From Pogonophryne albipinna (Eukaryota > Chordata > Actinopteri > Perciformes > Artedidraconidae), in contig JAPTMU010000155.1 of NCBI GenBank assembly GCA_028583405.1, positions 62,663-126,662 of the forward strand: DNA of 64,000 nucleotides, given 5' to 3'. Below, one piece after another: positions 6,001 to 58,544 of this stretch; the stretch's first letter is position 1, and each line of letters begins with the position of its first letter. The notes beneath the pieces are model-generated. The model had not been told where the DNA came from. It searched no databases and saw only the letters and a program-made list of their open reading frames with translations. The translations under genes were made by a program, and so were the position numbers.

Positions 6001-9000
6001 CAGAGTCAGAAAAAGTCTGAGTTAACTTTTTGGAGAACCATGAAAACGGGCCAAAAGTATCCAAAAATAGTGCATCATAGTGCGGGTAAAGTCCCCTGAC
6101 AACTCCCCTCACATTCCTCCAGAGTCAGAAAAAGTCTGAGTTAACTTTTTGGAGAACCATAAAAAAGGGGTGAAAATGGAAAAAAGTATCCGAAAATAGT
6201 GCATCATAGTGCGGGTAAAGACCCCTGACAACTCCCCTCACATTCCTCCAGAGTCAGAAAAGTCTGAGTTAACTTTTTGGAGAGCCATGAAAACAGGCCA
6301 AAAGTATCCGAAAATAGTGCATCATAGTGCGGGTAAAGTCCCCTGACAACTCCCCTCACATTCCTCCAGAGTCAGAAAAAGTCTGAGTTAACTTTTTGGA
6401 GAACCATGAAAACGGGCCAAAAGTATCCGAAAATAGTGCATCATAGTGCGGGTAAAGTCCCCTGACAACTCCCCTCACATTCCTCCAGAGTCAGAAAAAG
6501 TCTGAGTTAACTTTTTGGAGAACCATGAAAACGGGCCAAAAGTATCCGAAAATAGTGCATCATAGTGCGGGTAAAGTCCCCTGACAACTCCCCTCACATT
6601 CCTCCAGAGTCAGAAAAAGTCTGAGTTAACTTTTTGGCAAACCATGAAAACGGGCCAAAAGTATCCGAAAATAGTGCATCATAGTGCGGGTAAAGTCCCC
6701 TGACAACTCCCCTCACATTCCTCCAGAGTCAGAAAAAGTCTGAGTTAACTTTTTGGAGAACCATGAAAACGGGCCAAAAGTATCCGAAAATAGTGCATCA
6801 TAGTGCGGGTAAAGTCCCCTGACAACTCCCCTCACATTCCTCCAGAGTCAGAAAATGTCTGAGTTAACTTTTTGGAGAACCATGAAAATGGGCCAAAAGT
6901 ATCCGAAAATAGTGCATCATAGTGCGGGCAAAGTCCCCTGACAATTCCCCTCACATTCCTCCAGAGTCAGAAAAAAGTCTGAGTTAACTTTTTGGAGAAC
7001 CATAAAAAAGGGGTGAAAATGGAAAAAAGTATCCGAAAATAGTGCCTCATAACCCGGGTAGAGTCCCCTGACAACTCTCCTCACATTCCTCCAGAGTCAG
7101 AAAAACTCTAAGTTAACTTTTTTGAGAACCATAAAAAAGGGGGGAAAATGGAGAAATTGTGTCCGAAAATAGTGCATCATAAGGCGGGTAGAGTCCCCTG
7201 ACAACTCTCCTTACATTCCTCCAGAGTCAGAAAAAGTCTGAGTTAACATTTTGGAGAACCATGAAAACGGGCCAAAAGTATCCGAAAATAGTTCATCATA
7301 GTGCGGGTAAAGTCCCCTGACAACTCCCCTCACATTCCTCCAGAGTCAGAAAAGTCTGAGTTAATTTTTTGGAGAACCATGAAAACGGGCCAAAAGTATC
7401 CGAAAATAGTGCATCATAGTGCGGGTAAAGTCCCCTGACAACTCCCCTCACATTCCTCCAGAGTCAGAAAATGTCTGAGTTAACTTTTTGGAGAACCATG
7501 AAAACGGGCCAAAAGTATCCGAAAATAGTGCATCATAGTGCGGGTAAAGTCCCGTGACAACTCCCCTCACATTCCTCCAGAGTCAGAAAATGTCTGAGTT
7601 AACTTTTTGGAGAACCATGAAAACGGGCCAAAAGTATCCGAAAATAGTGCATCATAGTGCGGGTAAAGTCCCCTGACAACTCCCCTCACATTCCTCCAGA
7701 GTCAGAAAAAGTCTGAGTTAACATTTTGGAGAACCATGAAAACGGGCCAAAAGTATCCGAAAATAGTTCATCATAGTGCGGGTAAAGTCCCCTGACAACT
7801 CCCCTCACATTCCTCCAGAGTCAGAAAAAGTCTGAGTTAACTTTTTGGAGAACCATGAAAACGGGCCAAAAGTATCCGAAAATAGTGCATCATAGTGCGG
7901 GTAAAGTCCCCTGACAACTCCCCTCACATTCCTCCAGAGTCAGAAAAAGTCTGAGTTAACTTTTTGGAGAACCATGAAAATGGGCCAAAAGTATCCGAAA
8001 ATAGTTCATCATAGTGCGGGTAAAGTCCCGTGACAACTCCCCTCACATTCCTCCAGAGTCAGAAAAAGTCTGAGTTAACTTTTTGGAGAACCATAAAAAA
8101 GGGGTGAAAATGGAAAAAAGTATCCGAAAATAGTGCATCATAGTGCGGGTAAAGTCCCCTGACAACTCCCCTCACATTCCTCCAGAGTCAGAAAAAGTCT
8201 GAGTTAACTTTTTGGAGAACCATGAAAACGGGCCAAAAGTATCCGAAAATAGTGCATCATAGTGCGGGTAAAGTCCCCTGACAACTCCCCTCACATTCCT
8301 CCATAGTCAGAAAAAGTCTGAGTTAACTTTTTGGAGAACCATGAAAACGGGCCAAAAGTATCCGAAAATAGTGCATCATAGTGCGGGTAAAGTCCCCTGA
8401 CAACTCCCCTCACATTCCTCCAGAGTCAGAAAAAGTCTGAGTTAATTTTTTGGAGAACCATAAAAAAGGGGTGAAAATGGAAAAAAGTATCCGAAAATAG
8501 TGCATCATAGTGCGCGTAAATTCCCCTGACAACTCCCCTCACATTCCTCCAGATTCAGAAAAAGTCTGAGTTAACTTTTTAGAGAACCATGAAAACGGGC
8601 CAAAAGTATCCGAAAATAGTGCATCATAGTGCGGGTAAAGACCCCTGACAACTCCCCTCACATTCCTCCAGAGTCAGAAAAGTCTGAGTTAACTTTTTGG
8701 AGAACCATGAAAACAGGCCAAAAGTATCCGAAAATAGTGCATCATAGTGCGGGTAAAGTCCCCTGACAACTCCCCTCACATTCCTCCAGAGTCAGAAAAA
8801 GTCTGAGTTAACTTTTTGGAGAACCATGAAAACGGGCCAAAAGTATCCGAAAATAGTGCATCATAGTGCGGGTAAAGTCCCCTGACAACTCCCCTCACAT
8901 TCCTCCAGAGTCAGAAAAAGTCTGAGTTAACTTTTTGGAGAACCATGAAAATGGGCAAAAAGTATCCGAAAATAGTTCATCATAGTGCGGGTAAAGTCCC

Positions 9001-11078
9001 GTGACAATTCCCCTCACATTCCTCCAGAGTCAGAAAAAGTCTGAGTTAACTTTTTGGAGAACCATAAAAAAGGGGTGAAAATGGAAAAAAGTATCCGAAA
9101 ATAGTGCATCATAGTGCGGGTAAAGTCCCCTGACAACTCCCCTCACATTCCTCCAGAGTCAGAAAAAGTCTGAGTTAACTTTTTGGAGAACCATGAAAAC
9201 GGGCCAAAAGTATCCGAAAATAGTGCATCATAGTGCGGGCAAAGTCCCCTGACAACTCCCCTCACATTCCTCCAGAGTCAGAAAAAGTCTGAGTTAACTT
9301 TTTGGAGAACCATAAAAAAGGGGTGAAAATGGAAAAAAGTATCCGAAAATAGTGCATCATAGTGCGCGTAAATTCCCCTGACAACTCCCCTCACATTCCT
9401 CCAGATTCAGAAAAAGTCTGAGTTAACTTTTTAGAGAACCATGAAAACGGGCCAAAAGTATCCGAAAATAGTGCATCATAGTGCGGGTAAAGTCCCCTGA
9501 CAACTCCCCTCACATTCCTCCAGAGTCAGAAAAGTCTGAGTTAACTTTTTGGAGAACCATGAAAACAGGCCAAAAGTATCCGAAAATAGTGCATCATAGT
9601 GCGGGTAAAGTCCCCTGACAACTCCCCTCACATTCCTCCAGAGTCAGAAAAAGTCTGAGTTAACATTTTGGAGAACCATGAAAATGGGCCAAAAGTATCC
9701 GAAAATAGTTCATCATAGTGCGGGTAAAGTCCCCTGACAACTCCCCTCACATTCCTCCAGAGTCAGAAAAGTCTGAGTTAACTTTTTGGAGAACCATGAA
9801 AACGGGCCAAAAGTATCCGAAAATAGTGCATCATAGTGCGGGTAAAGTCCCCTGACAACTCCCCTCACATTCCTCCAGAGTCAGAAAAAGTCTGAGTTAA
9901 CTTTTTGGAGAACCATAAAAAAGGGGTGAAAATGGAAAAAAGTATCCGAAAATAGTGCATCATAGTGCGGGTAAAGTCCCCTGACAACTCCCCTCACATT
10001 CCTCCAGAGTCAGAAAAAGTCTGAGTTAACTTTTTGGAGAACCATGAAAACGGGCCAAAAGTATCCGAAAATAGTGCATCATAGTGCGGGTAAAGTCCCC
10101 TGACAACTCCCCTCACATTCCTCCAGAGTCAGAAAATGTCTGAGTTAACTTTTTGGAGAACCATGAAAACGGGCCAAAAGTATCCGAAAATAGTGCATCA
10201 TAGTGCGGGTAAAGTCCCCTGACAACTCCCCTCACATTCCTCCAGAGTCAGAAAAAGTCTGAGTTAACATTTTGGAGAACCATGAAAACGGGTCAAAAGT
10301 ATCCGAAAATAGTTCATCATAGTGCGGGTAAAGTCCCCTGACAACTCCCCTCACATTCCTCCAGAGTCAGAAAAAGTCTGAGTTAACTTTTTGGAGAACC
10401 ATGAAAACGGGCCAAAAGTATCCGAAAATAGTGCATCATAGTGCGGGTAAAGTCCCCTGACAACTCCCCTCACATTCCTCCAGAGTCAGAAAATGTCTGA
10501 GTTAACTTTTTGGAGAACCATGAAAATGGGCCAAAAGTATTCGAAAATAGTGCAACATAGTGCGGGTAAAGTCCCCTGACAACTCCCCTCACATTCCTCC
10601 AGAGTCAGAAAATGTCTGAGTTAACTTTTTGGAGAACCATGAAAACGGGCCAAAAGTATCCGAAAATAGTGCATCATAGTGCGGGTAAAGGTCTGAGTTA
10701 ACTTTTTGGAGAACCATGAAAACGGGCCAAAAGTATCCGAAAATAGTGCATCATAGTGCGGGTAAAGTCCCCTGACAATTCCCCTCACATTACTCCAGAG
10801 TCATAAAAAGTCTGAGTTAACTTTTTTGAGAACCATAAAAAAGGGGTGAAAATGGAAAAAAGTATCCGAAAATAGTGCCTCATAACCCGGGTAGAGTCCC
10901 CTGACAACTCTCCTCACATTCCTCCAGAGTCAGAAAAACTCTAAGTTAACTTTTCGGAGAACCAGAGAAAAGGGGTGAAAATGGATAAATTGTATCCGAA
11001 AATAGTGTCCCATAACGCGGGTAGAGTCCCCTGACAACACTCCTTACATTCCTGCAGAGTAAGAAAAACTCTGCCCGA
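1..11078. repeat. Satellite array, ~119/129-bp units, about 90 copies
   Basis: Head-to-tail tandem repeat occupying the whole left edge and continuing off the window. A unit starts near AAAATAGTGCATCATAGTGC and includes a CCCCTGACAACTCCCCTCAC core. At least four variants recur. Type A (119 bp) has CCATGAAAACGGGCC. Type B (about 129 bp) has CCATAAAAAAGGGGTG. Type C lacks the CCATAAAAA part and has GGAGAAGGGGTG. Type D has GCGCGTAAATTCC and TTTTTAGAG. Variants recur in fixed order, giving higher-order repeats. Units near 7060-7200 and after 10780 are more diverged, as expected towards an array edge. 119 is not a multiple of 3, so the short ORFs inside are incidental. I do not recognise the family by name. 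Confidence 0.97.
1230..2676. repeat. Tandemly duplicated six-unit higher-order repeat
   Basis: Units in the order C, D, A, A (with GGGACAAAAG), A, A/B occupy about 1230-1954 and recur in the same order at about 1955-2676. Diagnostic variants are offset by a constant 720-725 bp: GCGCGTAAATTCC near 1368 and 2093, GGGACAAAAG near 1574 and 2295, TCCATAGTC near 1761 and 2483. A partial third copy (C, D, A, GGGACAAAAG) starts near 3230. Confidence 0.8.
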
Positions 11079-23243: not shown

Positions 23244-25785
23244 CTAGATGACGTCTGACTCCACCACGCATTGCTCAGTGTACTCCTTCACCAGCTCCAC
23301 GTTCAAGATGTTGCGGCAGAATTCCATCATGGGCTTCCAGAGTGGCGGGTCCAGGAACATCTGGCACATCACGTGACCCTTCAGAGTGGCAGTGTGGTGC
23401 TGCAGGTGGCACAGGAACTGCTGCCGGACATGATCCAGGTCCTTACCGAACATGTCAATGTTCAGGTAATACCTGTTTTAAAAGAAGTGTGGTCAATTGA
23501 GTGAACATAATTTCTTGTTCTAAAATAACTGGAAATCTTAACCCTCCTGTCGTGTCTGTTTCTCCCCCCTCACTTTGGTGTTCCCGGGAAAATTGGACCG
23601 TTCTGTAACTTTAACTTCTCTTACATTGAAACAAGAACCATTCAAAATCACCACATTTTATTTAACACCATTTTAAGATGTAAACAATGTCTCAGACTTC
23701 TAGTTTACATTAATGGGTGTGTACTATCTGATGAACAGTCTAGAGTTACCCATTAATTTCCTATGGTGTTCATTTTTGACTGGGAACACCATCATTGTTA
23801 CAAAGTTGACTAAACCACTCAAAATTCAAAGAAAGTGGTGATCAGCAGCTTTATATGTTCAAATGCCGACTGTGGAGGATATCATAAGGCCTGGAGGCAA
23901 TCAAATATAAAACACAATATTTATGATTGATGGAAGAAGTAATCGGTCCAATTTGATCCGAACACCACAGGAGGGTTAAAACAACTATGTATATAACAAA
24001 TTAGCAACTTTGGCAACAATGGCATTATTGTAAGACAACATCATTGCATATTTTTCTGCACAGTAGTTGTCCCTGAATTTCAATGATTATAATAAGAAAG
24101 AAAGAAGAGTTACCAGTCATCTCCAATGAGCACCCTGAAAGGGAATGTACAGAGGCTGGCCACAGTAGGGTTGGCCACATCATCGACCATCCAGTCAATG
24201 TGCTTCTTCAGTACAATAGCCATGTTACTGGGTAGAAGCTTGAATGGCTGCCAATCTTGAATGATGGTGGCGTTAGGAAGGACCCCATGCATCCGATCAG
24301 AGGTCAGATACAGCTGGCGGATGGCTGTATTGTCGAGACGCACTGGAGGAGGTTTGAAGGAGGTGGACAAAGAAGATTGAATATCTCCAAGACCAAGATC
24401 AGACAGACGCAGCTTGAGTTCTTCAGCCCTGAAGCGCACCAGGAGAATACCCTATAGAGAAGAAAGCCAATGCAGGAGCTGACCATGGACTATATCGTAT
24501 ATATTTACATCAATAGTAAAACCAATTGACTTAAATTGAGGCTTATAAAGCACAGGCCAATACATAGAAAGGCTTGTTGCTTGTACCTGCTTGGTTATGA
24601 GTCGATATTTCTGGAAATCCTTGGGTCCGAGCTGATCGTCACGGGTCAAGCGGGTTACTTTGACATCAGAGAACTTGGATTTGACCAGATCAGAGCAAAA
24701 GCGCAGCAGAACCCCAGCCACACCCTTACCCCTTTCCTGAGGGGCGACACGTAGACCTTCCACCAGCATCGTCTCCCCATCGTCAATCACAACCACTGAC
24801 TCCAGAGCAATCTGTTGAGTAGAAGAAGAACATGTTGGGAAGAACCCTTTGGATACTTTGCCTTCTGCCAGTGAAAGTTATCTAAAACATGTTCAATGTC
24901 ATTGAGTCGGATAAGACGTAAACACAGAAAGAGGTCTCCCAAAATACTCAAAACTGGTTTAGTATGCAGTGTAGCATAAAGTATCTACTATCAATTGAAA
25001 GTGCCACCAAAGAGCTCAAAGTATAGTTTCTAGCCAAACAACATGTCAGCATCCGTGCTTGGCGTGTACAGGTTACGATTTAAAATTCAGTAATTATATA
25101 ATAGTTCCTAACGCAAGTAACTCCCCTTTACTACGAGGTTTGTCTCGATTGCTGTCAAGTTAGAGGGGTTAATCATATTGGTGGGCTCTACTTTAGAGAG
25201 ACTGGTCTGGGACATGTTAGCATGGCAGTTAGTCTCCAAATTAGGACAAAGGTGACTCCCAGTAATTCGCAATGGTTTCATTTGAATAATATTTGTGTGT
25301 TCTTAGATAGTTGGAGAACGGAAAGTTCCCAGTAGGTTTCTGCTTATTAAACGCAGTTGCTGAGAAATGAAACCAACGAGGAATGGCCTTAATTATGACA
25401 AATGTAATTTTTAACTTTTTAATTTTAAGTCATGAAACTCTTACTTTTGCACAGAGAAATGTCTTGGGTAAGAAAACAATTTTCCGACTTCTGTAATTCA
25501 AGAATTCAGCTTTTTCTACATCCATAAATTGTTATATTACTTATGATCAAATATTTGTATTGAACTTACCACTTTTCCCTGTTTGCGGGCCAATATGACG
25601 GTGCGGTTGGTCTCCTGCAGCCAGTCGGTGTATCTTGTGGGCAGGTAGTCGAGGCCTCCATAGATACCCTGGCTCATGCCCATGATCTCATCAAAGTCCT
25701 CCTCAGTGGCAACAGAAAACTGAAGGCCTGCCTGGGACAGGGCCTCTGGGAGCTGGAGCATGGTCAGGCTGGTGTCAATCTTCAT
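23244..25785 (-). CDS. hisat: Histidine N-acetyltransferase (GNAT family), complete, four coding exons
   Basis: Encodes a 335-aa enzyme that I recognise as fish histidine N-acetyltransferase (NAT16-related). It transfers acetyl from acetyl-CoA to the alpha-amino group of L-histidine, giving N-acetylhistidine, abundant in fish brain and lens. Coding exons on the minus strand are 25785-25570 (aa 1-72), 24811-24587 (73-147), 24451-24114 (148-259 plus two bases) and 23472-23244 (260-335, with stop). Every junction has a GT donor and AG acceptor, and the frame is continuous. Met1 begins MKIDTSLTMLQLPEAL; an upstream in-frame Met lies before a likely acceptor (TTTCAAG) and was rejected. The GNAT acetyl-CoA loop QERGKG (Q-x-x-G-x-G) is at residues 97-102. 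The protein ends CVVESDVI, without stops or frameshifts. A noncoding 5' exon probably lies upstream but is not placed. The reaction comes from family knowledge; substrate specificity is inferred from whole-protein resemblance. Confidence 0.92.
23542..23975. mobile_element. piggyBac-like MITE in hisat intron 3
   Basis: A 434-bp non-coding element bounded by TTAA on both sides (23538-23541 and 23976-23979). Its ends are inverted: left CCCTCCTGTCGTGT, right (reverse complement) CCCTCCTGTGGTGTT. Both continue to an AAATTGGACCG block further in. TTAA target and CCCT-starting ends are piggyBac hallmarks. It contains no transposase ORF. It sits between the exon ending at 23472 and the exon starting at 24114, leaving both splice sites intact. 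Confidence 0.8.
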
Positions 25786-28700
25786 CTTGAAATAACTGAT
25801 GAGATACAAAGTGGGGGAGAGGTTATTATGGATTGTAGTTATTTTCTTAAACAAGGATTTGGAAGAGCCCAAGAGCTGTCCTCACCCTGGTGGAACATTC
25901 TGGATGCGGCTAAACAAGCTTCTTCAAAATGTGCCTGCTTGGATAACAGGTGTTTGTGTCAAATCCACACCAAATGAGACTCTTGCTCAATTATAACACA
26001 TTCAGTAATGTTTCTGCCACTTTAAATAGATTTAATGGAAAGAATAATCACATTAGTAACTCCCGGCACAAATGCTTTACGTGTTATGGCTTGGCACTTG
26101 GTAAGTGAAACATACTGTAAGCAGTCTGTGAAAGCAGAGTAATAGCAGTGGTAAAACACAGACAGACAACATCTATACACATTTATTTTTTCACTTATTA
26201 CATAATATAGGAATCCAATACAGTGGAAAAATAAATAGGAATTAAATTGATGAGATTGGTGTAGGAATTGACAACTAAAAGCAAAATAATGCCAGTGAAA
26301 AAACTTTCATTTTCATTCAATTGCCAAAAGAGTGAACCAAACACAAATGACTGCCAAGAATGATAATGGCCAGTAACTGAATGAGATTGAGCAACAGATG
26401 AGTAGAAAGCAGAATAAAGATTTATACAGGAAAACATGAATGGATGGATCAGAAGGATATAGAAATGCAAGAAATAGGGAAATAAATTACAGATGAAAGG
26501 CAGAAACAGATCAATCACAACAGACACAGGACGTGTAAGATTGTCACCTATCTTGATCCCTATGTCTTTTATGCTTAGTCTGGTAAATCCATACCCCTCA
26601 GCTCTCTAATCCCTACACTAATACCCTCTCCACATTGTAATCACTGGTATTTGTCCAGAACTTGGCTAAAGAATGTACAGAATAAAAAATACAAGATAAA
26701 ATAGAGAAAGCTTTGAAGACATTTGTTTGGTCACATATATCACACAACCTTGAAGCCTACAATGCTGTTATTTCACCCAGATAAGACACATCAAGACAAA
26801 GTCAAGATCGAAGTGTTGTGGGCGCTAACCAAAACGAAAAAAGATTGAATAATATTGAAGTGCACCGGTGCCAGGTGTTAAGGCTCTGCACAGAGGAAAA
26901 CAAAAACAAGATGCTTGCTCTTACGAAGTTTTTTGCATTTAATTAGTTCGTGATACAAGGTATTAACACATGATGTAGTACAGTGTGATCAAATCAAATA
27001 AAACAAGCTTGTGCAAAAGAAAGACATGCAACATAAGAAGCCATATAAAAGAGTGATAAAATATGATAAGATACAATTAAGAACGAAAACATAAAAAAGC
27101 ATATAATGTAGGTAGGGTTACAAAGTAACACAGTTTATTGGACATAAATTCCAAAAGCTGTCAAATTCTGAAAGCTTCTTCCATTGATTGGATGTTTTGA
27201 ATAAAACACATTTTAGTGCTGTTAGCAGTTTTGGATGGTGATTCCACCTTTCATAGTAGGCAATAGGTAAGATAACTCCTTCTTAACCTGCAATGTATGT
27301 ATTTCACTGGGAGGGAATAAAGCATGGAAGATTCACAATAAGTCTCTCCAGTTTTCACCCCCGAAGTAAAGGTGCCATAACCAACCAGCTGGATAACACT
27401 GCAATGGTTCTCTGTGAACACAACACATTGTACTGTTGTACTTGATGTCACTCAAGACCAATCTGCAGTTACTGTTACCAAAGTTCAACCACAGGTCTTT
27501 GACACAAACTTGAACAGTGCAACCCATGCTCATAAACGTTAATGTTTCGAAATTGGCTGCAACATTGAGTATTTGCATTTGCACTGATGATAAACAATTA
27601 TAAATGGTACCTAGCCCTAGCTTTGATAGCTGTACAGAGATTGGAAGAATACCAACAACAAGATTGCAAATTGTAATCCAACAAACAGTTTGCTAAACTA
27701 CCTCATTCAGGTCCTAGTTACTGAAGCCAAACCATTTATTGTCCATAACTGAGGCTTCTGAGACAAAAAAGACAATAGCAAACAAAGACAACCATCCGAC
27801 TATCCAACTTCAGATCCCCAACCTGCCTCTCCAGAGCATAGACATACAGTATGTGTCAAAACAGAAAGGAATACCGAAAAGAAAAAAGACCGAGCCAAAC
27901 AGTCCAAGTATTGGCTCAATGGACAACAACAAAGCTTTCAAATAAATGCAACGCTACTCCTAACCAGAAACAGATACAGGACACCAGGCACACACTGTGG
28001 CAACACATTCACAATCAAGCCTTTGTTCTATCGTTATATGAACCCTCAAAACAACTTGTGTTTTCACATTTGGACCATCAATGGTAGCATGTACCAAGGC
28101 AGTGTACTACCCCCTCTGTTTTTCTACTTTGGCTCCTCCCCTTCCTGGTAGGTTTATTTCCAGAGGTTACTATGATAACAGGTTCAGGAAGAATGGGACC
28201 ACTATCAACCTCCTCTTCTGCATAGACCTCATCTGCCCATTTGTGAACACATGGTTGCAAAAAGAGAGAGGATTACTGGGACTGAATGGCTTGAACCAAC
28301 ACACAGACACACAGGGCAGCTTTATTCTTAAGGATTTCACAATCACAAAGGGGGCCTAGAACAAGGAAGACATACAGAAAGAGTACGACTGTACTGAAGT
28401 GCACCACTAAAAAATGTATACAAGCAAGACACAAAAGTCATTACATATCCATCCGGGTAGTTAAGTTGAACACCTGAACACATAAAGTCCTGGATTGTTC
28501 TTGCATAAAAGGGAGTAAGGATTCTAAATGTCAACAAGTCCAGCACCCTGACACTGTGCAACCTCAGAAAATAAAACGGCCGGGGTTAAGTGACTACCAA
28601 GGCTAGTGTCCTGTGGACCACCTATGAATAAATCGTTCCAAGGACAAACTGTTCCAGAGTGCAGCTGGTAAGGGCTATACTACAGCAAAGAAAATATGAC

Positions 28701-35885: not shown

Positions 35886-37322
35886 ATGAATATGTCTTTA
35901 TTATCGGGCTATGTTCCACAATCATTCAAAGTAGCAGTGATAAAACCGCTTCTTAAAAAGCATAACCTCAATCCAGAGGTTTTAGCCAACTCTAGACCTA
36001 TTTCTAATCTTCTGTTCCTCTCAAAAATTCTTGAGAAAGCAGTCGCAAAACAGTTGTGTGATTACTTAAAAAACAATAATTTATTTGAAGATTTTCAATC
36101 TGGCTTTAGAACACATCATAGCACAGAGACAGCTCTGGTTGCAGTCACAAATGACCTTCTAAAAGTCTCAGACAAAGGACTTGTCTCTATTCTTGTCTTG
36201 CTCGATCTCAGTGCTGCATTTGATACTATCGACCATGATATCCTATTGCAAAGACTAGAGCACTTAGTTGACATACAGGGAACTGCTTTAGGCTGGTGTA
36301 GGTCCTATCTATCTGAACACTCTCAGTTTGTATGTGTCAACGATGAATCTTCCATGCAAACCAAAGTTAGCCATGGAGTGCCACAGGGCTCAGTGCTTGG
36401 ACCTATTTTGTTCACATTATATATGCTTCCGTTAGGCAATATTATAAGGAATCATTCTGTACATTTTCATTGTTATGCGGATGATACTCAACTATATTTA
36501 TCAATAAAGCCTGATGAAATTAATCATCTAAATAAAATTCAAGATTGCCTCAAGGACTTAAAAACGTGGATGACTTTAAACTTTTTTATGTTAAACACGG
36601 CCAAAACTGAAGTTATTATACTCGGCCCAAAGAATCTACGAAACAAATTATCTAAAGATATACTAACTATGGATGGCATTAATTTGGCCTCCAGTGAGAC
36701 TGTCAGGAATCTTGGTGTTATATTTGATCAGGATTTATCCTTTAACACCCACATAAAATCAATTTCAAGGACCGCCTACTTCCATCTACGTAACATTGCA
36801 AAAATCAGGCATATCTTGCCTGAAAACGATGCAGAGAAACTAGTCCATATATTTGTTACTTCAAGGCTGGATTATTGTAACTCTTTATTATCAGGGTGTA
36901 CCAAGAAGTCAGTTAAGTCGCTTCAGCTGATTCAAAATGCTGCAGCATGTGTACTAACCAGAGTTAGGAAAAGGGACCACATTACTCCTGTTCTGGCTGC
37001 CTTACACTGGCTCACTATAGAACACAGGATATCATTTAAAATTCTACTTCTCGCCTACAAAGCCCTTAATGGGCAGGCGCCATCTTACCTTAAAGAACTC
37101 ATTATACCCTACTGTCCTACTAGGGAATTGCGTTCCAAGAATGCAGGGTTGTTGGTTGTTCCTAGAGTCTCTAAAAGTACAATGGGAGCCAGAACCTTTT
37201 CTTATCAAGCTCCACATTTGTGGAATCAGCTTCCAGTTTGTGTTCGGGTGGCAGACACCCTATCCGTTTTTAAGAGTGCGCTTAAGACCTTCCTTTTTGA
37301 TAAAGCTTATAGTTATGGCTGA
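35886..37322 (+). pseudogene. L2 LINE reverse transcriptase, C-terminal 478 codons
   Basis: Open reading frame with RT core motifs in order: finger motif SRPISN (residues 36-41), QSGFRTHHSTETAL (71-84), motif A LLDLSAAFDTIDH with D107, motif B HGVPQGSVLGP (163-173) and motif C YADD (197-200). The C-terminal LINE domain runs to the stop (LHWLTIEHRISFKILLLAYKAL, split across residues 373-394). The listed start is only the first Met after the last upstream stop; the element's true ORF2 starts far upstream. The endonuclease is missing, so the copy is dead on its own. The RT function would be target-primed reverse transcription of LINE RNA. Confidence 0.88.
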
Positions 37323-43487: not shown

Positions 43488-45467
43488 GTGACTGGGAAGA
43501 AAATATCTCCATGGAGAAAGGCCATGACCGTGAGAGCAGAAAAGAGAGAGTGTCGAAAAGCTGAACGTAGGTGGCGAAAAACAAATCTCCAGGTTCACTT
43601 TAAAATCTATAAAGAGAGACTTGGCCTTTATAATTTGGAATTGAAAAACGCACGACAATCTTTCTTCTCTGACATCATTACCAAAAACAAAAACAATGCA
43701 CGTGCCTTGTTTGCTACCGTCGACAGACTAACTAACCCCCCAGTGTCAGTAGCCTCTGAATTTCTATCCACCAGGGCATGCAATGATTTTGCCTCCTTCT
43801 TCACTGACAAAATTCAGAAAATCAGACAAGCAGTCAGTGCCTCTGCATCAGGTACAGCAAATGTGTTGTCCCTATGTCCACCTAATATCAATTCAAACAC
43901 CATGACACAATTCCATCAGATTAATGATAAAAACCTAGAGGACATTATTCAACTTCTGAAATCCTCCTCCTGCTGCCTTGATATTATTCCAACAGGATTT
44001 TTTTTCAAAGATGTTTTTCATTGCATGGCCTCAGATCTACTTCATATAGTAAACAAATCTCTTCACTCAGGTATTTTTCCACAGGCCTTGAAAACTGCAG
44101 TCATTAAACCGCTCTTAACAAATAATAATCTAGATGCTTCAGTAATGAACAATTACAGGCCCATATCAAACCTGCCATTTCTAGGTAAAATCATCGAAAA
44201 AGTTGTTTTTCAACAGTTGAGTAATTTCTTGCATTTAAATAGTTGTTTCGATGTGTTCCAGTCAGGCTTTCGTCCAAACCACAGCACTGAGACTGCTCTT
44301 GTAAAGGTCTTCAATGACATCCACTTAAACACAGACAGTGGCAGAACTTCAGTGTTAGTATTATTAGATCTCAGTGCTGCGTTTGACACTGTTGACCACA
44401 ACATATTACTCGACCGACTAGAAAACTGGGTGGGACTTTCGGAAACAGTTCTAAATTGGTTTGATTCCTACTTAAAGGACAGAAAAAACTTTGTTTCTAT
44501 AGGTAAATACACATCTGAGTTGACAAATATGACATGTGGGGTACCTCAAGGCTCCATCTTGGGGCCTCTTCTCTTTAACATCTACATGCTACCACTGGCT
44601 CAGGTAATGAAAAACAACAAAATAAGTTACCATAGCTATGCGGATGACACACAAATGTACGTAACAATTTCACCAGGAGACTATGCTCCAATTCAAACAC
44701 TGAGTAAGTGCATTGAACAAATCAATGACTGGATGTGTAAGAACTTTATCCAATTAAACAAAGATAAAACTGAGGTAATGGTTTTTGAAGCCAAGGCAGA
44801 ACGTATAAAAGTTAGCGCTGAGCTTCAGTCTGCAATGTTCAAAACAACAGATAAAGCCAGAAATCTAGGTGTAGTCATGGACTCTGACCTGAGTTTCAAC
44901 AGTCACATTAAAACAGTTACTAAATCAGCCTACTATCACCTAAAGAATATATCTAGGATTAAAATACTAATGTCACAGCAGGATTTGGAAAAACTTGTTC
45001 ATGCTTTTATCTTCAGTAGACTGGACTACTGTAATGGTGTCTTTGCAGGTCTCACTAAAAAATCTATTAGAAAGCTGCAGCTAATTCCGAACGCTGCTGC
45101 TCGAGTCCTCACTAACACTAAGAAAGTGGATCACATCACTCCTGTTCTGAAGTCTTTACACTGGCTTCCTGTGTGTCAAATAATAGATTTCAAAATACTG
45201 CTGCTGGTTTATAAAGCTTTGAATGGTTTAGGCCCAAAATACATTTCTGACCTACTGCTAAATTATGAACCATCCAGATCTCTCAGGTCTTCAGGGACTG
45301 GTCAGCTTTCTGTCCCCAGAGTCAGAACTAAACATGGAAAAGCAGCGTTTAGTTATTATGCTCCAAATATCTGGAACAAACTCCCAGAAACCTGCAGGTC
45401 CGCTGCAACTCTGACTACTTTTAAATCCAGACTAAAGACTTTTCTTTTTGCCGCTGCTTTTAATTGA
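43488..45467 (+). CDS. L2 LINE ORF2, reverse transcriptase part (659 codons, open)
   Basis: Reverse transcriptase of an L2-clade LINE, copying its RNA at a nicked genomic target. Visible in order: basic linker (residues 1-60), NNYRPISNLPFLGKIIEK (221-238), QSGFRPNHSTETAL (258-271), motif A VLLDLSAAFDTVDH with D294, motif B CGVPQGSILGP (350-360), motif C YADD (384-387), LNKDKTEVMVF, and the C-terminal LHWLPV...LVYKALNG block. No stop or frameshift occurs in these 659 codons. The matching endonuclease lies upstream (39060-43412) but is out of frame and split by two DNA transposons, so the element as a whole is inactive. The Met used is just the first after an upstream stop. Confidence 0.9.
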   Translation: MTGKKISPWRKAMTVRAEKRECRKAERRWRKTNLQVHFKIYKERLGLYNLELKNARQSFFSDIITKNKNNARALFATVDRLTNPPVSVASEFLSTRACNDFASFFTDKIQKIRQAVSASASGTANVLSLCPPNINSNTMTQFHQINDKNLEDIIQLLKSSSCCLDIIPTGFFFKDVFHCMASDLLHIVNKSLHSGIFPQALKTAVIKPLLTNNNLDASVMNNYRPISNLPFLGKIIEKVVFQQLSNFLHLNSCFDVFQSGFRPNHSTETALVKVFNDIHLNTDSGRTSVLVLLDLSAAFDTVDHNILLDRLENWVGLSETVLNWFDSYLKDRKNFVSIGKYTSELTNMTCGVPQGSILGPLLFNIYMLPLAQVMKNNKISYHSYADDTQMYVTISPGDYAPIQTLSKCIEQINDWMCKNFIQLNKDKTEVMVFEAKAERIKVSAELQSAMFKTTDKARNLGVVMDSDLSFNSHIKTVTKSAYYHLKNISRIKILMSQQDLEKLVHAFIFSRLDYCNGVFAGLTKKSIRKLQLIPNAAARVLTNTKKVDHITPVLKSLHWLPVCQIIDFKILLLVYKALNGLGPKYISDLLLNYEPSRSLRSSGTGQLSVPRVRTKHGKAAFSYYAPNIWNKLPETCRSAATLTTFKSRLKTFLFAAAFN

Positions 45468-45639: not shown

Positions 45640-45758
45640 AAACTTGCCTTGCCTTGCCTTGCCTTGCCTTGCCTTGCCTTGCCTTGCCTTGCCTTGCCTT
45701 GCCTTGCCTTGCCTTGCCTTGCCTTGCCTTGCCTTGCCTTGCCTTGCCTTGCCTTGCC
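45640..45758. repeat. (CCTTG)n tail of the L2 LINE
   Basis: About 23 pentamer copies directly after the LINE 3' end AAATAAACTTG, which itself ends with the repeat motif. It is the expanded 3' tail of the element. Confidence 0.95.
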
Positions 45759-51954: not shown

Positions 51955-52447
51955 TTACGAACCGACCAACAAATGGACCCAGCAGATGATCCATGGGAGG
52001 TAGAATTACAGCATTTTACCTTCTATCTGGCTTGCTTCTTCGATTGGTGGAAGTGAGCGTCCAGTGTTCGGCAGAAGAGGGCCGCTCTGGTAGAGGCGCA
52101 CCGGTTGGCAGCTGAGAAACTATGTTTTGTGGAGTTCTTACCTGACTGGATTTTGGACTTCCTTGAAACATGTGATTCCCGGCCTGCTAGCCCCAGGCAT
52201 GCTAGCTCCATGTCTCCCAATTCCCAACCTGGCACCATACGCCTTGGTGGGTTCAGCCTGAAGTCAACCCGTGCTTCTGCCCCAGTTCCTGCTCCTGTCC
52301 AGGAGTCGTATTCCGGAACTCGTCTGGCTTATGGAGATCCACGGAGTATTCAGGCGGCTGCTAAGAGGAGTCGTCGCAAGGCCAGGCTAGCAGCCCGAGC
52401 CCCAGCAGCCATGGTTCTGGCTACAGAACCGGCCCACACAGCCATGG

Positions 52448-52710
52448 TTCCGGCCCCAGTTCTGGCCCCAGCAGCCATGGTTCCAGCCCCAGTTCTGGCC
52501 CCAGCAGCCATGGTTCCGGCCCCAGTTCTGGCCCCAGCAGCCATGGTTCCGGCCCCAGTTCTGGCCCCAGCAGCCATGGCTCCAGCCCCAGTTCTGGCCC
52601 CAGCAGCCATGGTTCCAGCCCCAGTTCTGGCCCCAGCAGCCATGGTTCCGGCCCCAGTTCTGGCCCCAGCAGCCATGGTTCCAGCCTCAGTCCTGGCCCC
52701 AGCAGCCATG
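52448..52710. repeat. 30-bp minisatellite (PAPVLAPAAM repeats)
   Basis: About nine tandem 30-bp units with CCAGTTCTGGCCCCAGCAGC as core, differing mainly at one CCGG/CCAG position. The antisense reading (LLGPELGPEPW repeats) is a shadow. Confidence 0.92.
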
Positions 52711-52889
52711 GTTTCGACGCCAGCTCCCCGTGTCCTGTCGGCGTACCGGCCGACTCCAGCACCTCGTCTCCTGTTGGCTGTCCGTCCGACGCCGGCTGTC
52801 CGTGTCCTGTCGGCGTACCGGCCGACTCCAGCACCTCGTCTCCTGCTGGATCTCCAGCCGACGCCAGCTCCCCGAGTCCTGTCAGCATG

Positions 52890-53283
52890 TGTGATGCCCC
52901 TGTGGGTTCATCAGTAGAGAGGAGGTGGCTGTGCTGTGGTGATTGGTGATTGCAGTAACTCAGGGCACCTGGGTCTGGTGTCCTGCAACTATTTAACGCC
53001 TCTCTGCTCCTCTCTGTTGTCTCTCTGCTTCTCCCTGCAGGCACACCGGTTTTGTTGAGTATAATAGGAGTTTATTCAGTTGCTTTACTTTGTGCACTTC
53101 AACACTCTCACACACATACATGTCCATACAATCCTCACCCTGCATTTACATTACTGATACCACTGACTTCCACACCTCATACTTTACTGGTTTTGACTTG
53201 TTTGTCCTAAATAAACACCTTTAACTACCCGTTGACATGTTGTGTCTCCTTTTTGTTGTGGCCTTTTGAGCCAGGTCGCAACA
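52890..53283 (+). repeat. 5' LTR of the young element
   Basis: 394 bp, starts TGTGATGCCCC and ends GTCGCAACA. A TATA-like CTATTTAAC near 52988 and AATAAA at 53210-53215 fit promoter and polyadenylation signal. Identical by eye to 55994-56387. Confidence 0.95.
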
Positions 53284-53285
53284 AA

Positions 53286-53303
53286 TGGGGGCTCGTCCGA
53301 CGG
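53286..53303 (+). other. Primer-binding site, tRNA-Pro-like
   Basis: TGGGGGCTCGTCCG begins two bases after the 5' LTR. It is complementary to the 3' end of a proline tRNA over its first 14 positions; the last four differ from the usual retroviral tRNA-Pro site. Confidence 0.8.
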
Positions 53304-53849
53304 GTTATTTGTTTAAAAAGTTTGTGTAGTGCTCAGAGCACATGGTGTCATTGAGCAGCTGATTCATTGTTGTGGTCCAGCTGTGTGCTGGCTTGTCGCT
53401 GCTATTTGGGGGACACATCATGTCTTTTGGGTTTTAGGAGGCTGTAGTGTTTGACATGTCGTCAGGTTTTGTCTGCCAATCAGAAGGTAAGATGTTGCTG
53501 TTTGTTACGTTTTTGTAAAAGAGATTTTCCCCGCTAGGCTTAAGTGGCGTTTCCCCTTGGGTTGCGTCTGTTTTTTGTTGTTGTTTTTTTTCATAGTGTT
53601 GTGGCGACGTGGTTAGTGTCAGCTGTTTTCGGACAGCTGTCTCGGGGGCACGTCCGCGTGAGTTCTTGGTGTTACATGCGTGCAGGTTGCTCCATAACTC
53701 CGCCGGGTTCCAGTGCGTAATTACCCACCGCAAGCCACATGAAGACTAGGTGAGATTAGGAAGATTTTGTTTAGGCAGTTAGGGGGAAATTCTCTGTTGG
53801 GTTAATCTTATGCCCATGCGTGTTGGCAGTTTAATACTTTGCTTTCTGA
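53304..53849 (+). other. Leader between primer site and ORF
   Basis: About 550 bp without a long ORF. This is where packaging signals of LTR elements normally lie; nothing specific is recognised. Confidence 0.6.
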
Positions 53850-56021
53850 TTGGTTATTATGACTTCTTTGTCAGCGTTTGTGGATGCGCCCTCAGTGTCT
53901 TTCTTAGATGATTGCCAGAAGGCGCAGTTGGTCGAAATAGCAGAGCACTATAACATTGCTGTTGTGGGGAGCAAGCGGAAACATGACATTAAAACTGTCA
54001 TTGTGTCATCTTTGTTTGAGCAGGGGGTGTTGCAGAAGAGTGAGTCTGGTGCAGCAGGGTTCGTGCCGGTAGTGGTTCAGACAGCTGGTTTAACGTTCGA
54101 GCAGCAAAAGGAGCTTTTGGCCATGCAGTTTGATCAGGAGAGATTGCGGTTGGAGTTGAGGTTGGAGCAGGAGAAGTTGAGGTTGGAGCAGGAGAAGTTG
54201 CAGTTGGACATGAGGTTGGAGCAGGAGAAGTTGCAGTTGGAGATAAGGGGTCAGCAGCAGGAGGTAGAGAAGCGTTTAGAGGTGGAGAAGGTGCTGGAGG
54301 TGGAAAAGATGAAATGTGAGGTGGAACATGCTAGATTACGGCTGATGGGAGAGGGCAAGTTTTCTCCAGGGGAGGATGGTGGTGATAGGTCGGCATCAGG
54401 CAGTGGCGATATCATTTCTTACTTGCGATTAGTGCCAAAGTTCAATGAGCGTGACCCGGACATTTTTTTCACTCTATTTGAACGCATAGCAGAGGCAAGA
54501 AACTGGTCAGATTCGGACAGAGTGCTGTTACTTCAGTGTGTACTCACTGGGCGAGCACAGGAAGCCTATTCAGCTGTTTGTGGCGAAAATGCTTTGGACT
54601 ATGATAGAGTAAAATCAGCGGTGTTGAAGTCTTACGAACTGGTTCCTGAAGCGTATCGTCAAAGGTTCAGAAGTTGGGTCAAGGGAGATAAACAGACACA
54701 TGTGGAGTTTATCCGTGATTTAACTTCTCATTTTCAGCGGTGGTGCACGGCAGCAAAGGTTGCAAGTTTTGACGGTCTTTGTGAGCTCATTGTCTTGGAA
54801 CAATTTAAAGACATTCTCCCTCAGCGTGTGGCCACTTATGTGAATGAACAGAAGCCTTCCACCGCGTTTAGAGCTGCTGAATTAGCGGACGATTTTGTGT
54901 TGACACATAAGGGCAGTTTTACTGAGAAGTATTCTAGGGGTGATTGGAAACGTGGAGAAGACAATGGCTATGCCCGCGGTGGTGCAAAGTTTTCACCAGG
55001 CTCCTCCCGTAGATTTGTAGGTCCAGGGCGATCCGAGGGCGCCAGAGTGGGCCAATGTCATTATTGCCGAGAAGAGGGTCATTGGAAGGAGCGGTGTCCG
55101 TTGCTGGAACCTGAGGGGAAGCCTCGTTCTTCATCACATGCTCCAGCCATGTGTTGTTCTGCCGTTTTGGTTAAAAAGCCGCAGGGTGTAAGATCGGGCA
55201 TGGTGCCTGTTAAGAAGCTGGTTTGTGCCGACTTGGAGGTGGGTTCTGTTTTTGAGCCGTTCATAACGGAAGCCGTTGTATCAATGGTCGGTAGTGACAA
55301 GTATGTTCCGATTAAGGTGTTGCGTGACACAGCAGCTAGATACTCATTTATTGTTGAGTCCGTGTTGCCTTTTTCGTCAGAGACAGAAACAGGGGATTTT
55401 GTGCTGATGAGGGGCATGGAGATGGGCTTGATTCCTGTGCAACGTCATACAGTAGTGCTGGATTGTGAGCTGGTACGGGGAGTTGTGTCTATCGGCGTGC
55501 GTCCCGCGTTGCCACTTGATGGGGTACAGATGATTTTGGGCAACGATCTAGCTGGTAGTGCTGTGTGGGCGGGTGTGCCACCGCCTGTGGTGATTTCCAG
55601 GCCGTTGGCATCTGTAGAGCCAGATGAGAGCGGTTTGCAATTTCCAAGTGTGTCTCCAGTTTATACTGTTACGCGTGCGCAGAGCCGTAGGATGTCGACT
55701 GGCCTGCCTGTTTCGGAGTCTGGAAAATGTGGTCCAGCACGGTCCTTGGACTTTGAGATCGAGACAAAGAAGAGGAGGCCGAAGAAGAGGAGGCCGAAGG
55801 AGGTCGGCGCGCCCAAGAGGCCGATGAGCGCCTACATGCTGTGGCTCAACGCCAGCCAACCCAAGGAGGAGTGGGACAGTGGCGGAGGAGGAGCGTCCTC
55901 CAGTCCTAAGAAGGAAATTAAAAAAGCTGGAGTTAAGAAGGAGGATATTGGGTTGTCGTGGATCCCTTTGGGGCCCCGTCTTAAGGGGGGGGCTGTGATG
56001 CCCCTGTGGGTTCATCAGTAG
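53850..56021 (+). CDS. Gag-protease-like polyprotein with captured SSRP1 HMG-box fragment (723 aa)
   Basis: Residues 20-60 form a basic SAP-like helix pair, and 84-165 a Glu/Leu/Gln-rich coiled coil of RLEQEKLQLE-type repeats. About 185-355 is a retroelement capsid region whose last part (LEQFKDILP...AAELADDFVL) is SCAN-like. A CCHC zinc knuckle CHYCREEGHWKERC has C403, C406, H411 and C416. About 455-575 is retropepsin-like, with DTA at 493-495 where DTG/DSG is usual, and a terminal ILGNDLAG. Reverse transcriptase should follow, but residues about 640-700 instead contain a basic linker, APKRPMSAYMLWLNAS (654-669), KEEWD and GGGGASSSPKKE. These match the HMG box and tail of SSRP1 with internal segments missing. 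The ORF crosses the polypurine tract and stops 28 bp inside the 3' LTR. A second Met four codons in is an alternative start. Gag assembly is known for the family; a chromatin role for the tail is only inference. Confidence 0.88.
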   Translation: MVIMTSLSAFVDAPSVSFLDDCQKAQLVEIAEHYNIAVVGSKRKHDIKTVIVSSLFEQGVLQKSESGAAGFVPVVVQTAGLTFEQQKELLAMQFDQERLRLELRLEQEKLRLEQEKLQLDMRLEQEKLQLEIRGQQQEVEKRLEVEKVLEVEKMKCEVEHARLRLMGEGKFSPGEDGGDRSASGSGDIISYLRLVPKFNERDPDIFFTLFERIAEARNWSDSDRVLLLQCVLTGRAQEAYSAVCGENALDYDRVKSAVLKSYELVPEAYRQRFRSWVKGDKQTHVEFIRDLTSHFQRWCTAAKVASFDGLCELIVLEQFKDILPQRVATYVNEQKPSTAFRAAELADDFVLTHKGSFTEKYSRGDWKRGEDNGYARGGAKFSPGSSRRFVGPGRSEGARVGQCHYCREEGHWKERCPLLEPEGKPRSSSHAPAMCCSAVLVKKPQGVRSGMVPVKKLVCADLEVGSVFEPFITEAVVSMVGSDKYVPIKVLRDTAARYSFIVESVLPFSSETETGDFVLMRGMEMGLIPVQRHTVVLDCELVRGVVSIGVRPALPLDGVQMILGNDLAGSAVWAGVPPPVVISRPLASVEPDESGLQFPSVSPVYTVTRAQSRRMSTGLPVSESGKCGPARSLDFEIETKKRRPKKRRPKEVGAPKRPMSAYMLWLNASQPKEEWDSGGGGASSSPKKEIKKAGVKKEDIGLSWIPLGPRLKGGAVMPLWVHQ
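55770..55950 (+). pseudogene. ssrp1: Captured fragment of SSRP1 (FACT complex subunit) coding sequence
   Basis: In frame with the upstream gag-protease. Lys/Arg-rich linker, then APKRPMSAYMLWLNAS, the distinctive start of the SSRP1 HMG box (HMGB proteins differ here), then KEEWD from its third helix region, then a Gly/Ser stretch and KKE-rich tail like that after the box. About 35 residues of the box are missing between NAS and KEEWD, so it cannot fold as a full HMG box. No introns remain, which suggests capture from spliced mRNA. The identification comes from remembered SSRP1 features, not a search. Confidence 0.8.
55983..55993 (+). other. Polypurine tract of the young element
   Basis: AAGGGGGGGGC directly 5' of the 3' LTR, where plus-strand DNA synthesis is primed. 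It is also translated as the end of the polyprotein (KGGA). Confidence 0.8.
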
Positions 56022-56387
56022 AGAGGAGGTGGCTGTGCTGTGGTGATTGGTGATTGCAGTAACTCAGGGCACCTGGGTCTGGTGTCCTGCAACTATTTAA
56101 CGCCTCTCTGCTCCTCTCTGTTGTCTCTCTGCTTCTCCCTGCAGGCACACCGGTTTTGTTGAGTATAATAGGAGTTTATTCAGTTGCTTTACTTTGTGCA
56201 CTTCAACACTCTCACACACATACATGTCCATACAATCCTCACCCTGCATTTACATTACTGATACCACTGACTTCCACACCTCATACTTTACTGGTTTTGA
56301 CTTGTTTGTCCTAAATAAACACCTTTAACTACCCGTTGACATGTTGTGTCTCCTTTTTGTTGTGGCCTTTTGAGCCAGGTCGCAACA
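55994..56387 (+). repeat. 3' LTR of the young element
   Basis: 394 bp, same ends and by eye same sequence as 52890-53283. Followed by target duplication GCATG. Confidence 0.95.
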
Positions 56388-56429
56388 GCATGTCGGCCGA
56401 CTCCAGCCCCCCGTGTTCTGTTGGCGAAC

Positions 56430-56995
56430 CAACTCTCTCTCGAGCTACCTCTCGAGTCCCCTCTCGAGTTCCCTCTCGAGTCCGAGTCTCCTCTCGAGTC
56501 TCCTCTCGAGTATCCTCTCGAGTCTCCTCTCGAGTCTCCTCTCGAGTTTCCTCTCGAGTCTCCTCTCATGTTCCTTCTCGAGTCTCCTCTCCTGGGCCTT
56601 CTCAGGTCTCCTCTCGAGTCACCTCTCAAGTCTCCTTCCAAGTCCCCTTTCAAGTCACCCCTCCAGTCCCCTCTCGAGTCTCCTCTCAAGTCTTCTCTCC
56701 AGTTCCCCCTCAAGTTCCCTCTCGAGTTCCCTTTCAAGTCATCTCTCGAGTCCCTGTTCAAGACACTTCTCAAGTTCCCTCTCGAGTCTCTTCTCAAGTT
56801 CCTTCTCGAGTCCCCTCTCAAGTCTCCTCTCGAGTCTCCTCTCCAGTCACCTCTCGAGTTCCCTCTCGAGTCTCCTCTCCAGTCACCTCTCGAGTTCCCT
56901 CTCGAGTCCCCTCTCAAATGACCTCTCGAGTTACCTCTCAAGTTCCCTCTCAAGCCCTCTCTCGAGTTCCCACTCAAGTCCCTACTCAAGTACCG
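56430..56995. repeat. CTCTCGAGT-type short tandem repeats
   Basis: Dozens of degenerate 12-15-bp units (CCTCTCGAGTCTCCTCTCAA type). They stay open in several frames on both strands, so overlapping Ser-Arg, Leu-Glu-Ser-Pro and antisense Arg-Gly-Asp ORFs appear; only the frame continuing the LTR-element ORF is likely meaningful. Confidence 0.9.
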
Positions 56996-56999
56996 TTGG

Positions 57000-57960
57000 T
57001 GGTTCCGCTGGGGGTCCTGCCAACCCTTTGTCCTGTCCCGTTGGAGGTCCCGCCGTCTACTCTCCTGCCGGGGGTCCTGCCAGCTCCTTGTCCTGTCTCG
57101 TTGGAGGCCCCGCCGACTACTCTCTTGCCGGGGGTCCTGCCAACCCTGTGTCCTGTCCCGTTGGAGGTACCGCTGGGGATCCTGCCAGCTCCTTGTCCTG
57201 TCCCGTTGGGGGTCCCGCCGACTACTCTCCTGCCGGGGGTCCTGCCAACCCTATGTCCTGTCCCGTTGGGGGTCCCGCCGACTACTCTCCTGCCGGGGGT
57301 CCTGCCAACCCTTTGTCCTGTCTCGTTGGAGGTCCCGCCGTCTACTCTCCTGCCGGGGGTCCTGCCAATCTTATGTCCTGTGCCGTTGGAGGCCCCGCCA
57401 ACAACTCTCCTGCCGGGGGTCCTGCCAATCCTATGTCCTGTGCCGTTGGAGGCCCCGCCGACTACTCTCCTGCCGGGGGTCCTGCCAATCTTATGTCCTG
57501 TGCCGTTGGAGGCCCCGCCGACAACTCTCCTGCCAATCCTATGTCCTGTGCCGTTGGAGGCCCCGCCGACTACTCTCCTGCCAACCCTGTGTCCTGTGCC
57601 GTTGGAGGCCCCGCCGACAACTCTCCTGCCGGGGGTCCTGCCAATCCTATGTCCTGTGCCGTTGGAGGCCCCGCCGACTACTCTCCTGCCAACCCTGTGT
57701 CCTGTGCCGTTGGAGGCCCCGCCGACTACTCTCCTGTCGGGGGTCCTGCCAACCCTGTGTCCCGTTGGAGGCCCCGCCGACTACTCTCCTGCCGGGGGTC
57801 CTGCCAACCCTTTGTCCTGTCTCGTTGGAGGTCCCGCCGTCCACTCTCCTGCCGGGGGTCCTGCCAACCCTGTGTCTTGTGCCGTTGGAGGCCCCGCCGA
57901 CTACTCTTCTACCGGGGGTCCTGCCAACCCCATGTCCTGTTTCGTTGGAGGCCTCGACAT
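57000..57960. repeat. 60-bp minisatellite (20-aa units)
   Basis: About 16 units of 60 bp, some shortened to about 45 bp by loss of the CCGGGGGTCCTGC part, in the ORF of the older LTR element. The core contains GTTGGAGGCCCCGCCGACTA. Confidence 0.93.
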
Positions 57961-58544
57961 CACATGTCTCGCCGGGGGTCCTGTCAACTCCTTGTCCTCT
58001 TCCGTGGGGAATCTTGCCGACACCTGTTCCACCGGCTCTGGTTACTGTCCGGTCAACACCGGCTCCTGCCCGGTCCCCTGAGAGCTGTGGTCTTCGCCCC
58101 TCCTCGAACTCTGCCTTGCCCCCGGGCCGTCCACCCGAGAACCCCTTTTTGAATTCTGCCTTACCCCCGGGCCGTCCGCCCGAGATCCCTTCCTGGTCCT
58201 CTGCTGTGCTCCTGGGCGGTCAGCTCAGTCCCGTCCTCCTGACCCCCTCCACCCACCCTGGTGGCCTAGTGATAAATATTTAAATAAAAATCTTCGGACC
58301 CCCCTAGAGGATGTTAGGTCCACCCCACATTTGTAAAAAAAAATAGCACTTTGAGCTGATTATCGAGCCTTCATTGTAACACTGTATGTGCGTGAGCGTG
58401 TGGGGAGTGTTGCAGTAGAAAATTCCACTGTAGCGCCCGGTACATTAATGGGAAACCCTAAATGTTTGAGCACCCTCTATCAAACGTCAAGCTACCCCAC
58501 AGCACCCCCAAAAGAAAATATCTGGCACCGCCACTGTGCTGCAG

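Follow-up and report, generated by a model that had tools for sequence, protein, structure and literature searches.

The retrotransposon and its relatives

The window, meaning the whole stretch of 64,000 nucleotides that was analyzed, contains a complete LTR retrotransposon on the plus strand (52890-56387), which holds one intact open reading frame (ORF) of 720 codons. The 5' LTR (52890-53283) and the 3' LTR (55994-56387) are each 394 bp long and identical in all 394 bases; they begin with TG, end with CA and carry AATAAA at LTR position 321. The target site duplication GCATG is found on both sides, at 52885-52889 and 56388-56392. Also on the plus strand, the primer-binding-site-like sequence TGGGGGCTCGTCCG (53286-53299) starts two bases past the 5' LTR and may correspond to a proline-tRNA primer site, and the polypurine tract AAGGGGGGGG (55983-55992) lies one base before the 3' LTR. 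Because the LTRs show 0/394 differences (95% upper bound on their divergence, 0.76%), the insertion is recent. Many recent Gypsy copies have been reported from Pogonophryne albipinna (PMC10716251).

The element sits between G+C-rich minisatellite arrays (52399-52883 and 56437-58005) with units of 33, 36/72, 12 and 60 bp. Joined without the element, its flanks read TGTCAGCATG followed directly by TCGGCCGACTCCAGC, which by eye resembles the neighboring tandem repeat; across them, the three forward frames run without a stop codon for 752, 737 and 453 codons. No other copies of the LTR or of the inner part were found within the window. Elsewhere, the window contains a satellite array with a 119-bp unit in about 88 copies that extends to its left end (1-10690), two ORFs with reverse transcriptase domains that are probably of the LINE type (35886-37322 and 43488-45467; PF00078, E = 1.6e-36 and 4.2e-34) and a perfect array of 23 CTTGC pentamers (45643-45758). 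Possible N-acetyltransferase-like exons lie on the minus strand (24452-25872); one of the two ORFs there resembles GNAT weakly (E = 0.0079, short of the cut-off), and the other shows no match.

The single ORF of the element is open over 53850-56021, with its first ATG at 53859. The resulting protein of 720 amino acids (53859-56021, plus strand) comprises a Gag, a protease-like region and a tail derived from the SSRP1 gene, and its stop codon falls within the 3' LTR. Glu/Gln/Leu-rich repeats near the start (54095-54268) are likely to form a coiled coil. The Gag capsid is a SCAN domain (residues 263-351, 54645-54911; PF02023, E = 7.3e-19). The CCHC zinc knuckle that comes after it (residues 399-414, 55053-55100) scores below the Pfam cut-off (16.3 versus 20.8 bits), and its C400, C403, H408 and C413 are invariant in 10/10 aligned proteins. 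The protease-like region, whose limits were placed by eye and are approximate (55251-55556), was recognized by alignment with relatives P0036 and P0046 from the motifs RDTAAR and ILGNDLAG; the Pfam scan gave no protease match in the ORF, and the two relatives read RDTGA where the window copy has RDTAAR. The DTAA form (window 55319-55340) also occurs in P0001, P0003, P0004, P0034 and P0050. The identical LTRs, the GCATG duplication and the SCAN match bear out the preliminary description, which took this DNA for an LTR retrotransposon whose Gag-protease-like ORF is intact; the span that it gave, 53850-56021, is correct for the ORF, and the element with its LTRs is larger.

A search with residues 1-500, in which 7993 candidates were scored, found 255 proteins at E <= 1e-5, and among the best 120 of these all relatives with a named organism come from fish. 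Relatives P0042 and P0061 have, in this order, SCAN, a weak knuckle, integrase and reverse transcriptase. Integrase ahead of reverse transcriptase is the order found in Gmr1 elements. The SCAN domain itself is reported to derive from a Gmr1-like Gag (PMC3424704), and over half of frog Gmr elements are reported to carry it (PMC4131045). The window copy resembles Gmr1-like Ty3/gypsy elements in its SCAN-type Gag, and its relatives do so in their placement of integrase before reverse transcriptase; it differs from them in that integrase, reverse transcriptase and RNase H are absent (Pfam scan). Going by domain content, we file the element as a pol-less derivative of Gmr1-like Ty3/gypsy rather than as a full member. 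In the window copy, then, pol is absent, the LTRs and the ORF are intact and the insertion is recent.

What normally follows the protease-like region is seen in relative P0034 (79% identical), which parallels the ORF through that region and, at the position where the window copy has SSRP1, leads on into an integrase zinc-binding domain. This agrees with the earlier statement that pol is missing, and the idea that the tail is an ordinary retroelement C-terminus was rejected on the same comparison. P0034, known from a partial protein, is a possible helper. A gene model of Pseudochaenichthys georgianus (P0093) joins a SCAN-type Gag to cep104 and may be an annotation chimera.

Origin of the C-terminal tail

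The ORF contains APKRPMSAYMLWLNAS, KEEWD and GGGGASSSPKKE. To identify the source of the tail, we searched 5.77 billion sequences with residues 600-720, which yielded 32 proteins at E <= 0.01. Of these, 28 are identified as SSRP1 from their names or their SSRP1 Pfam domains, and the other four are further copies of the element family. Against PDB sequences, SSRP1 (9.6e-5) ranked ahead of HMG-D (0.036) and Nhp6A (0.66). As judged by these searches, the best non-element match of the tail is SSRP1, and the proposal that the C-terminus comes from SSRP1 and from no other HMG protein holds.

We aligned the window tail, allowing long gaps, with SSRP1a of Pseudochaenichthys georgianus (P0005) as the reference. 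The captured segment (55740-55943, plus strand) matches SSRP1a in five blocks, with 9/12 identical residues at 387-398, 26/28 at 535-562, 4/6 at 592-597, 5/5 at 617-621 and 15/19 at 635-653. It begins with RSLDFEIET (55740) at SSRP1a residue 387 and ends near residue 653. As had been proposed, it has internal gaps. The preliminary description had placed its start at the HMG box; the piece in fact begins upstream, in the middle part of SSRP1. Three short blocks further upstream, 9, 9 and 2 residues long and all within SSRP1a residues 1-120, were taken as chance matches and excluded. The gap at 621-635 corresponds to an alanine stretch in P0005. Because many other fish SSRP1 sequences also lack this stretch, the gap does not reflect a deletion in the element.

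Of the HMG box, the window copy retains the first 18 of 69 profile positions (window residues 652-669), which score below the Pfam cut-off; the box is cut to the same 18 positions in P0002, so a whole HMG box is found in neither, and what remains is too small a part of the fold for structure prediction. The QP that precedes KEEWD has no counterpart in SSRP1 or in any known part of the element. A 15-nt tandem unit encoding the basic sequence KKRRP is present in two copies (55767-55799, plus strand) and looks like a nuclear-localisation signal, a role it could have. Behind the SSRP1 segment, a stretch common to P0001 and P0004 (55944-55993, plus strand) probably represents the native 3' end of the element; no full-length relative reached this far. 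Third-codon G+C content is 1.00 over 29 tail codons. We discarded it as a mark of foreign origin because it does not discriminate: a run of 26 codons in Gag reaches 1.00 as well.

The matching blocks are short, so one may ask whether the likeness arose by chance, belongs to another HMG family or reflects an assembly error at the join. We consider this almost certainly wrong. The E-values and the ranking favor SSRP1, one block alone matches at 26 of 28 residues, and the join recurs in records from two named fish, Pogonophryne albipinna and Gymnodraco acuticeps, and in one ENA contig. The P. albipinna record is not independent if the window is from Pogonophryne; the Gymnodraco record is independent.

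To characterize the donor, we compared 119 SSRP1-like sequences, namely those containing KRPMSAYMLW among 242 proteins, a sample biased to matches of the tail search. The motif RRPKEV (within KKRRPKEV) occurs in two of the 119, both from icefish (P0005 from Pseudochaenichthys and P0180 from Chaenocephalus aceratus), and GVKKE occurs in P0005 only, the P0180 model being without that part. Eleginops and Cottoperca have KKQKD in place of the icefish-type motif. Because the window copy carries both RRPKEV and GVKKE, the donor was most likely the SSRP1a gene in an Antarctic notothenioid lineage that had already diverged from Eleginops. This assignment draws on two short motifs and on four notothenioid SSRP1 sequences (P0005, P0010, P0015 and P0180), of which P0005 represents a cluster of 18. 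The Antarctic radiation has been dated to about 10.7 million years ago, with about 22 million cited from earlier work (PMC10256766).

The form in which SSRP1a was captured was assessed at the protein level. Exon joins were deduced, partly by eye, from gene models that show intron-like inserts or skipped stretches; these models are irregular and only P0180 is from a notothenioid. One join, at SSRP1a residues 537/538, appears in three of the 119 models (P0026, P0202 and P0223), and another, at 595/596, in four (P0006, P0008, P0027 and P0180). The first is crossed without inserts by P0002-P0004 (alignment) and by P0001 (by eye). The second is crossed without inserts by P0001-P0003 and the window copy, with only two matching upstream residues (KE). 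The absence of inserts at 537/538 and at the thinly covered 595/596 supports the capture of spliced, intron-less RNA, as had been suggested, with junctions and joins alike deduced from proteins.

Another route to an intron-less tail would be read-through: an element inserted in an SSRP1a intron could have had its transcript spliced into SSRP1a exons and later been copied whole. The left edge at 387/388 and the right edge at 650-653 both lie near breaks in gene models (P0239 and P0180) and are possibly exon borders, as read-through would predict. Each border is seen in one gene model of 119, however, and the element's probable own 3' end comes directly after SSRP1, so that a second join is needed anyway. 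We regard read-through as unlikely.

Copies of the chimera and the role of its tail

The preliminary description asked whether the SSRP1 piece is unique to this copy. The protein searches indicate that it is a family trait: the Gag-to-SSRP1 join occurs in four further proteins, P0001 from Pogonophryne albipinna, P0002 and P0003 from Gymnodraco acuticeps, and P0004 from an ENA contig of 2106 bases. P0001 is the closest element copy (98% identity over the aligned part); as other close copies come from Gymnodraco, the host of the window element is most likely an Antarctic notothenioid. P0001 and P0002 are without part of Gag or protease, probably as a result of gene modeling. Two more proteins, P0033 (Gymnodraco) and P0035 (Trematomus bernacchii), stop short of the tail and are uninformative on it. 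A search with the P0002 tail (E <= 0.1) found no copies beyond P0001-P0003 among the best 120 of 201 matches. Pattern searches for the DNA of relatives returned 5 matches in viral_contigs and 34 in genome_contigs, with 0 relatives in either. The copies were recovered by protein search, which favors open frames.

The five sequences share the join and differ in their gaps. P0002 and P0003 retain SSRP1a residues 526-562 (P0003 without KRP) and 592-621. P0001 retains 527-534 plus extra KRRPN units. P0004 retains 522-544, after which comes the probable own end of the element, and has lost the HMG start. By eye, the P0002 frame is shifted after ESKK. The basic stretch is present in all five sequences, with a number of KKRRP-like units that differs among copies. 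In the window, the 8-nt direct repeat GAAGGAGG occurs at 55796 and 55937 and would fit the P0004 gap through template slippage; this is weak evidence, as GAAGGAGG is one of 12 repeats of at least 7 nt in the purine-rich stretch and P0004 is known from its protein only.

Tail differences per residue exceed those of Gag-protease in nine of ten pairs of copies. In four pairs p < 0.001, all of them involving the shifted end of P0002 or the missing block of P0004, and the remaining six have p values from 0.03 to 0.46. The pair P0002 and P0003 is reversed, with 1/82 differences in the tail and 15/371 in Gag. The test is not firm because it uses five sequences in overlapping pairs, because the tail counts take in the element's own 3' end and because the P0002 shift or the P0004 gap throws some pairs out of alignment. 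As far as these comparisons go, there is no sign that the tail is under stronger constraint than Gag.

These results bear on the possibility that the tail is useful, its basic KKRRP repeats directing Gag, or what Gag carries, to the nucleus or chromatin, so that the chimera was kept by selection. Several observations would fit: all five sequences have the basic stretch, though P0004 has lost the HMG start; the number of KKRRP-like units varies among copies; and the window copy maintains its frame through several joins, something not required of a pure passenger. FACT is also a plausible retroelement partner, since alpharetrovirus integrase is reported to bind it (PMC8149907). This binding makes a chromatin role thinkable by analogy, and it is not evidence for the window element. 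Against a useful tail stand the reduction of the HMG box in the window copy and P0002 and its absence in P0004, the P0002 frame shift, and the excess of tail differences in nine of the ten pairs, with the four strongest involving P0002 or P0004. We therefore consider a selected tail rather improbable, and the earlier idea that the tail tethers particles or cDNA to chromatin is not sustained by the incomplete, below-cut-off HMG piece, its loss in P0004 and a constraint that does not exceed that of Gag. A more specific scenario, in which the basic repeats of Gag are kept by selection, bring pol-less particles or cDNA to the nucleus and give the chimera a competitive edge over its full-length parents in the genomes of Antarctic fish, is more doubtful still.

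Proposed history and comparison with known captures

The history that we favor, with good confidence, is that of a non-autonomous Gmr1-type Ty3/gypsy element, present here as a young insertion, that captured a spliced SSRP1a mRNA by template switching and then spread with a tail that is mostly a passenger. Gag particles would have packaged spliced SSRP1a mRNA alongside the element RNA, and the reverse transcriptase would have switched templates. A stretch of SSRP1a (about residues 387-653) would thereby have replaced integrase, reverse transcriptase and RNase H, in frame behind Gag and protease, in a chimera that retained its LTRs, primer site and polypurine tract. Integrase and reverse transcriptase were probably supplied in trans by full-length relatives. 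In later copying, the purine-rich SSRP1 stretch would have shed blocks and gained short repeats, leaving different subsets in different copies. The tail, mainly a passenger, would add a basic and probably unfolded end to Gag.

On this reading, the family is a clear vertebrate case in which a Ty3/gypsy element took up a host mRNA and then multiplied, and copies in Pogonophryne and Gymnodraco, two named Antarctic fish genera, would retain different remnants of one capture. Such a series of copies permits ordering the losses, dating the capture relative to the Antarctic fish radiation and testing for selection on a host-derived Gag tail.

A literature search by titles and the starts of abstracts found no paper on an SSRP1-bearing retroelement; on capture and on notothenioid elements it found precedents, not the SSRP1 case. 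The preliminary claim that no element of this kind has been described is too strong in view of these precedents. LTR elements are already known to capture host mRNA, and the points of interest here are the replacement of pol and the series of eroded copies. For instance, maize Bs1 is described as an LTR element with host-gene pieces in its coding region and a hybrid ORF (PMC5408686, PMC13317346), and LTR-mediated retroposition has been reported in animals including zebrafish (cited in PMC5408686). The window element resembles Bs1 in enclosing host sequence within a hybrid ORF. It differs in that Bs1, as described, comes from a plant and carries pieces of three host genes, whereas ours is a fish Gmr1-type element with a piece of one chromatin gene, known in several copies.

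Among vertebrates, crocodilian endogenous retroviruses (ERVs) are reported to have acquired KIT-ligand and nectin3 mRNA, the nectin3 case being present in several copies, 5/6 of them with a small deletion (PMC4299795). These elements are retroviruses, however, and nectin3 is described as having replaced env, with remaining domains that show evidence of purifying selection (PMC4299795). In the window element it is pol whose place was taken, and the HMG domain of SSRP1 is no longer whole.

Acute transforming retroviruses carry host mRNA in frame behind Gag, have lost pol, need a helper and encode functional oncoproteins. The window element resembles them in its in-frame fusion of Gag to host sequence, its loss of pol and its probable need for a helper. 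It differs in being a retrotransposon, not an infectious virus, and in carrying a truncated, eroded host piece where they carry a functional oncoprotein.
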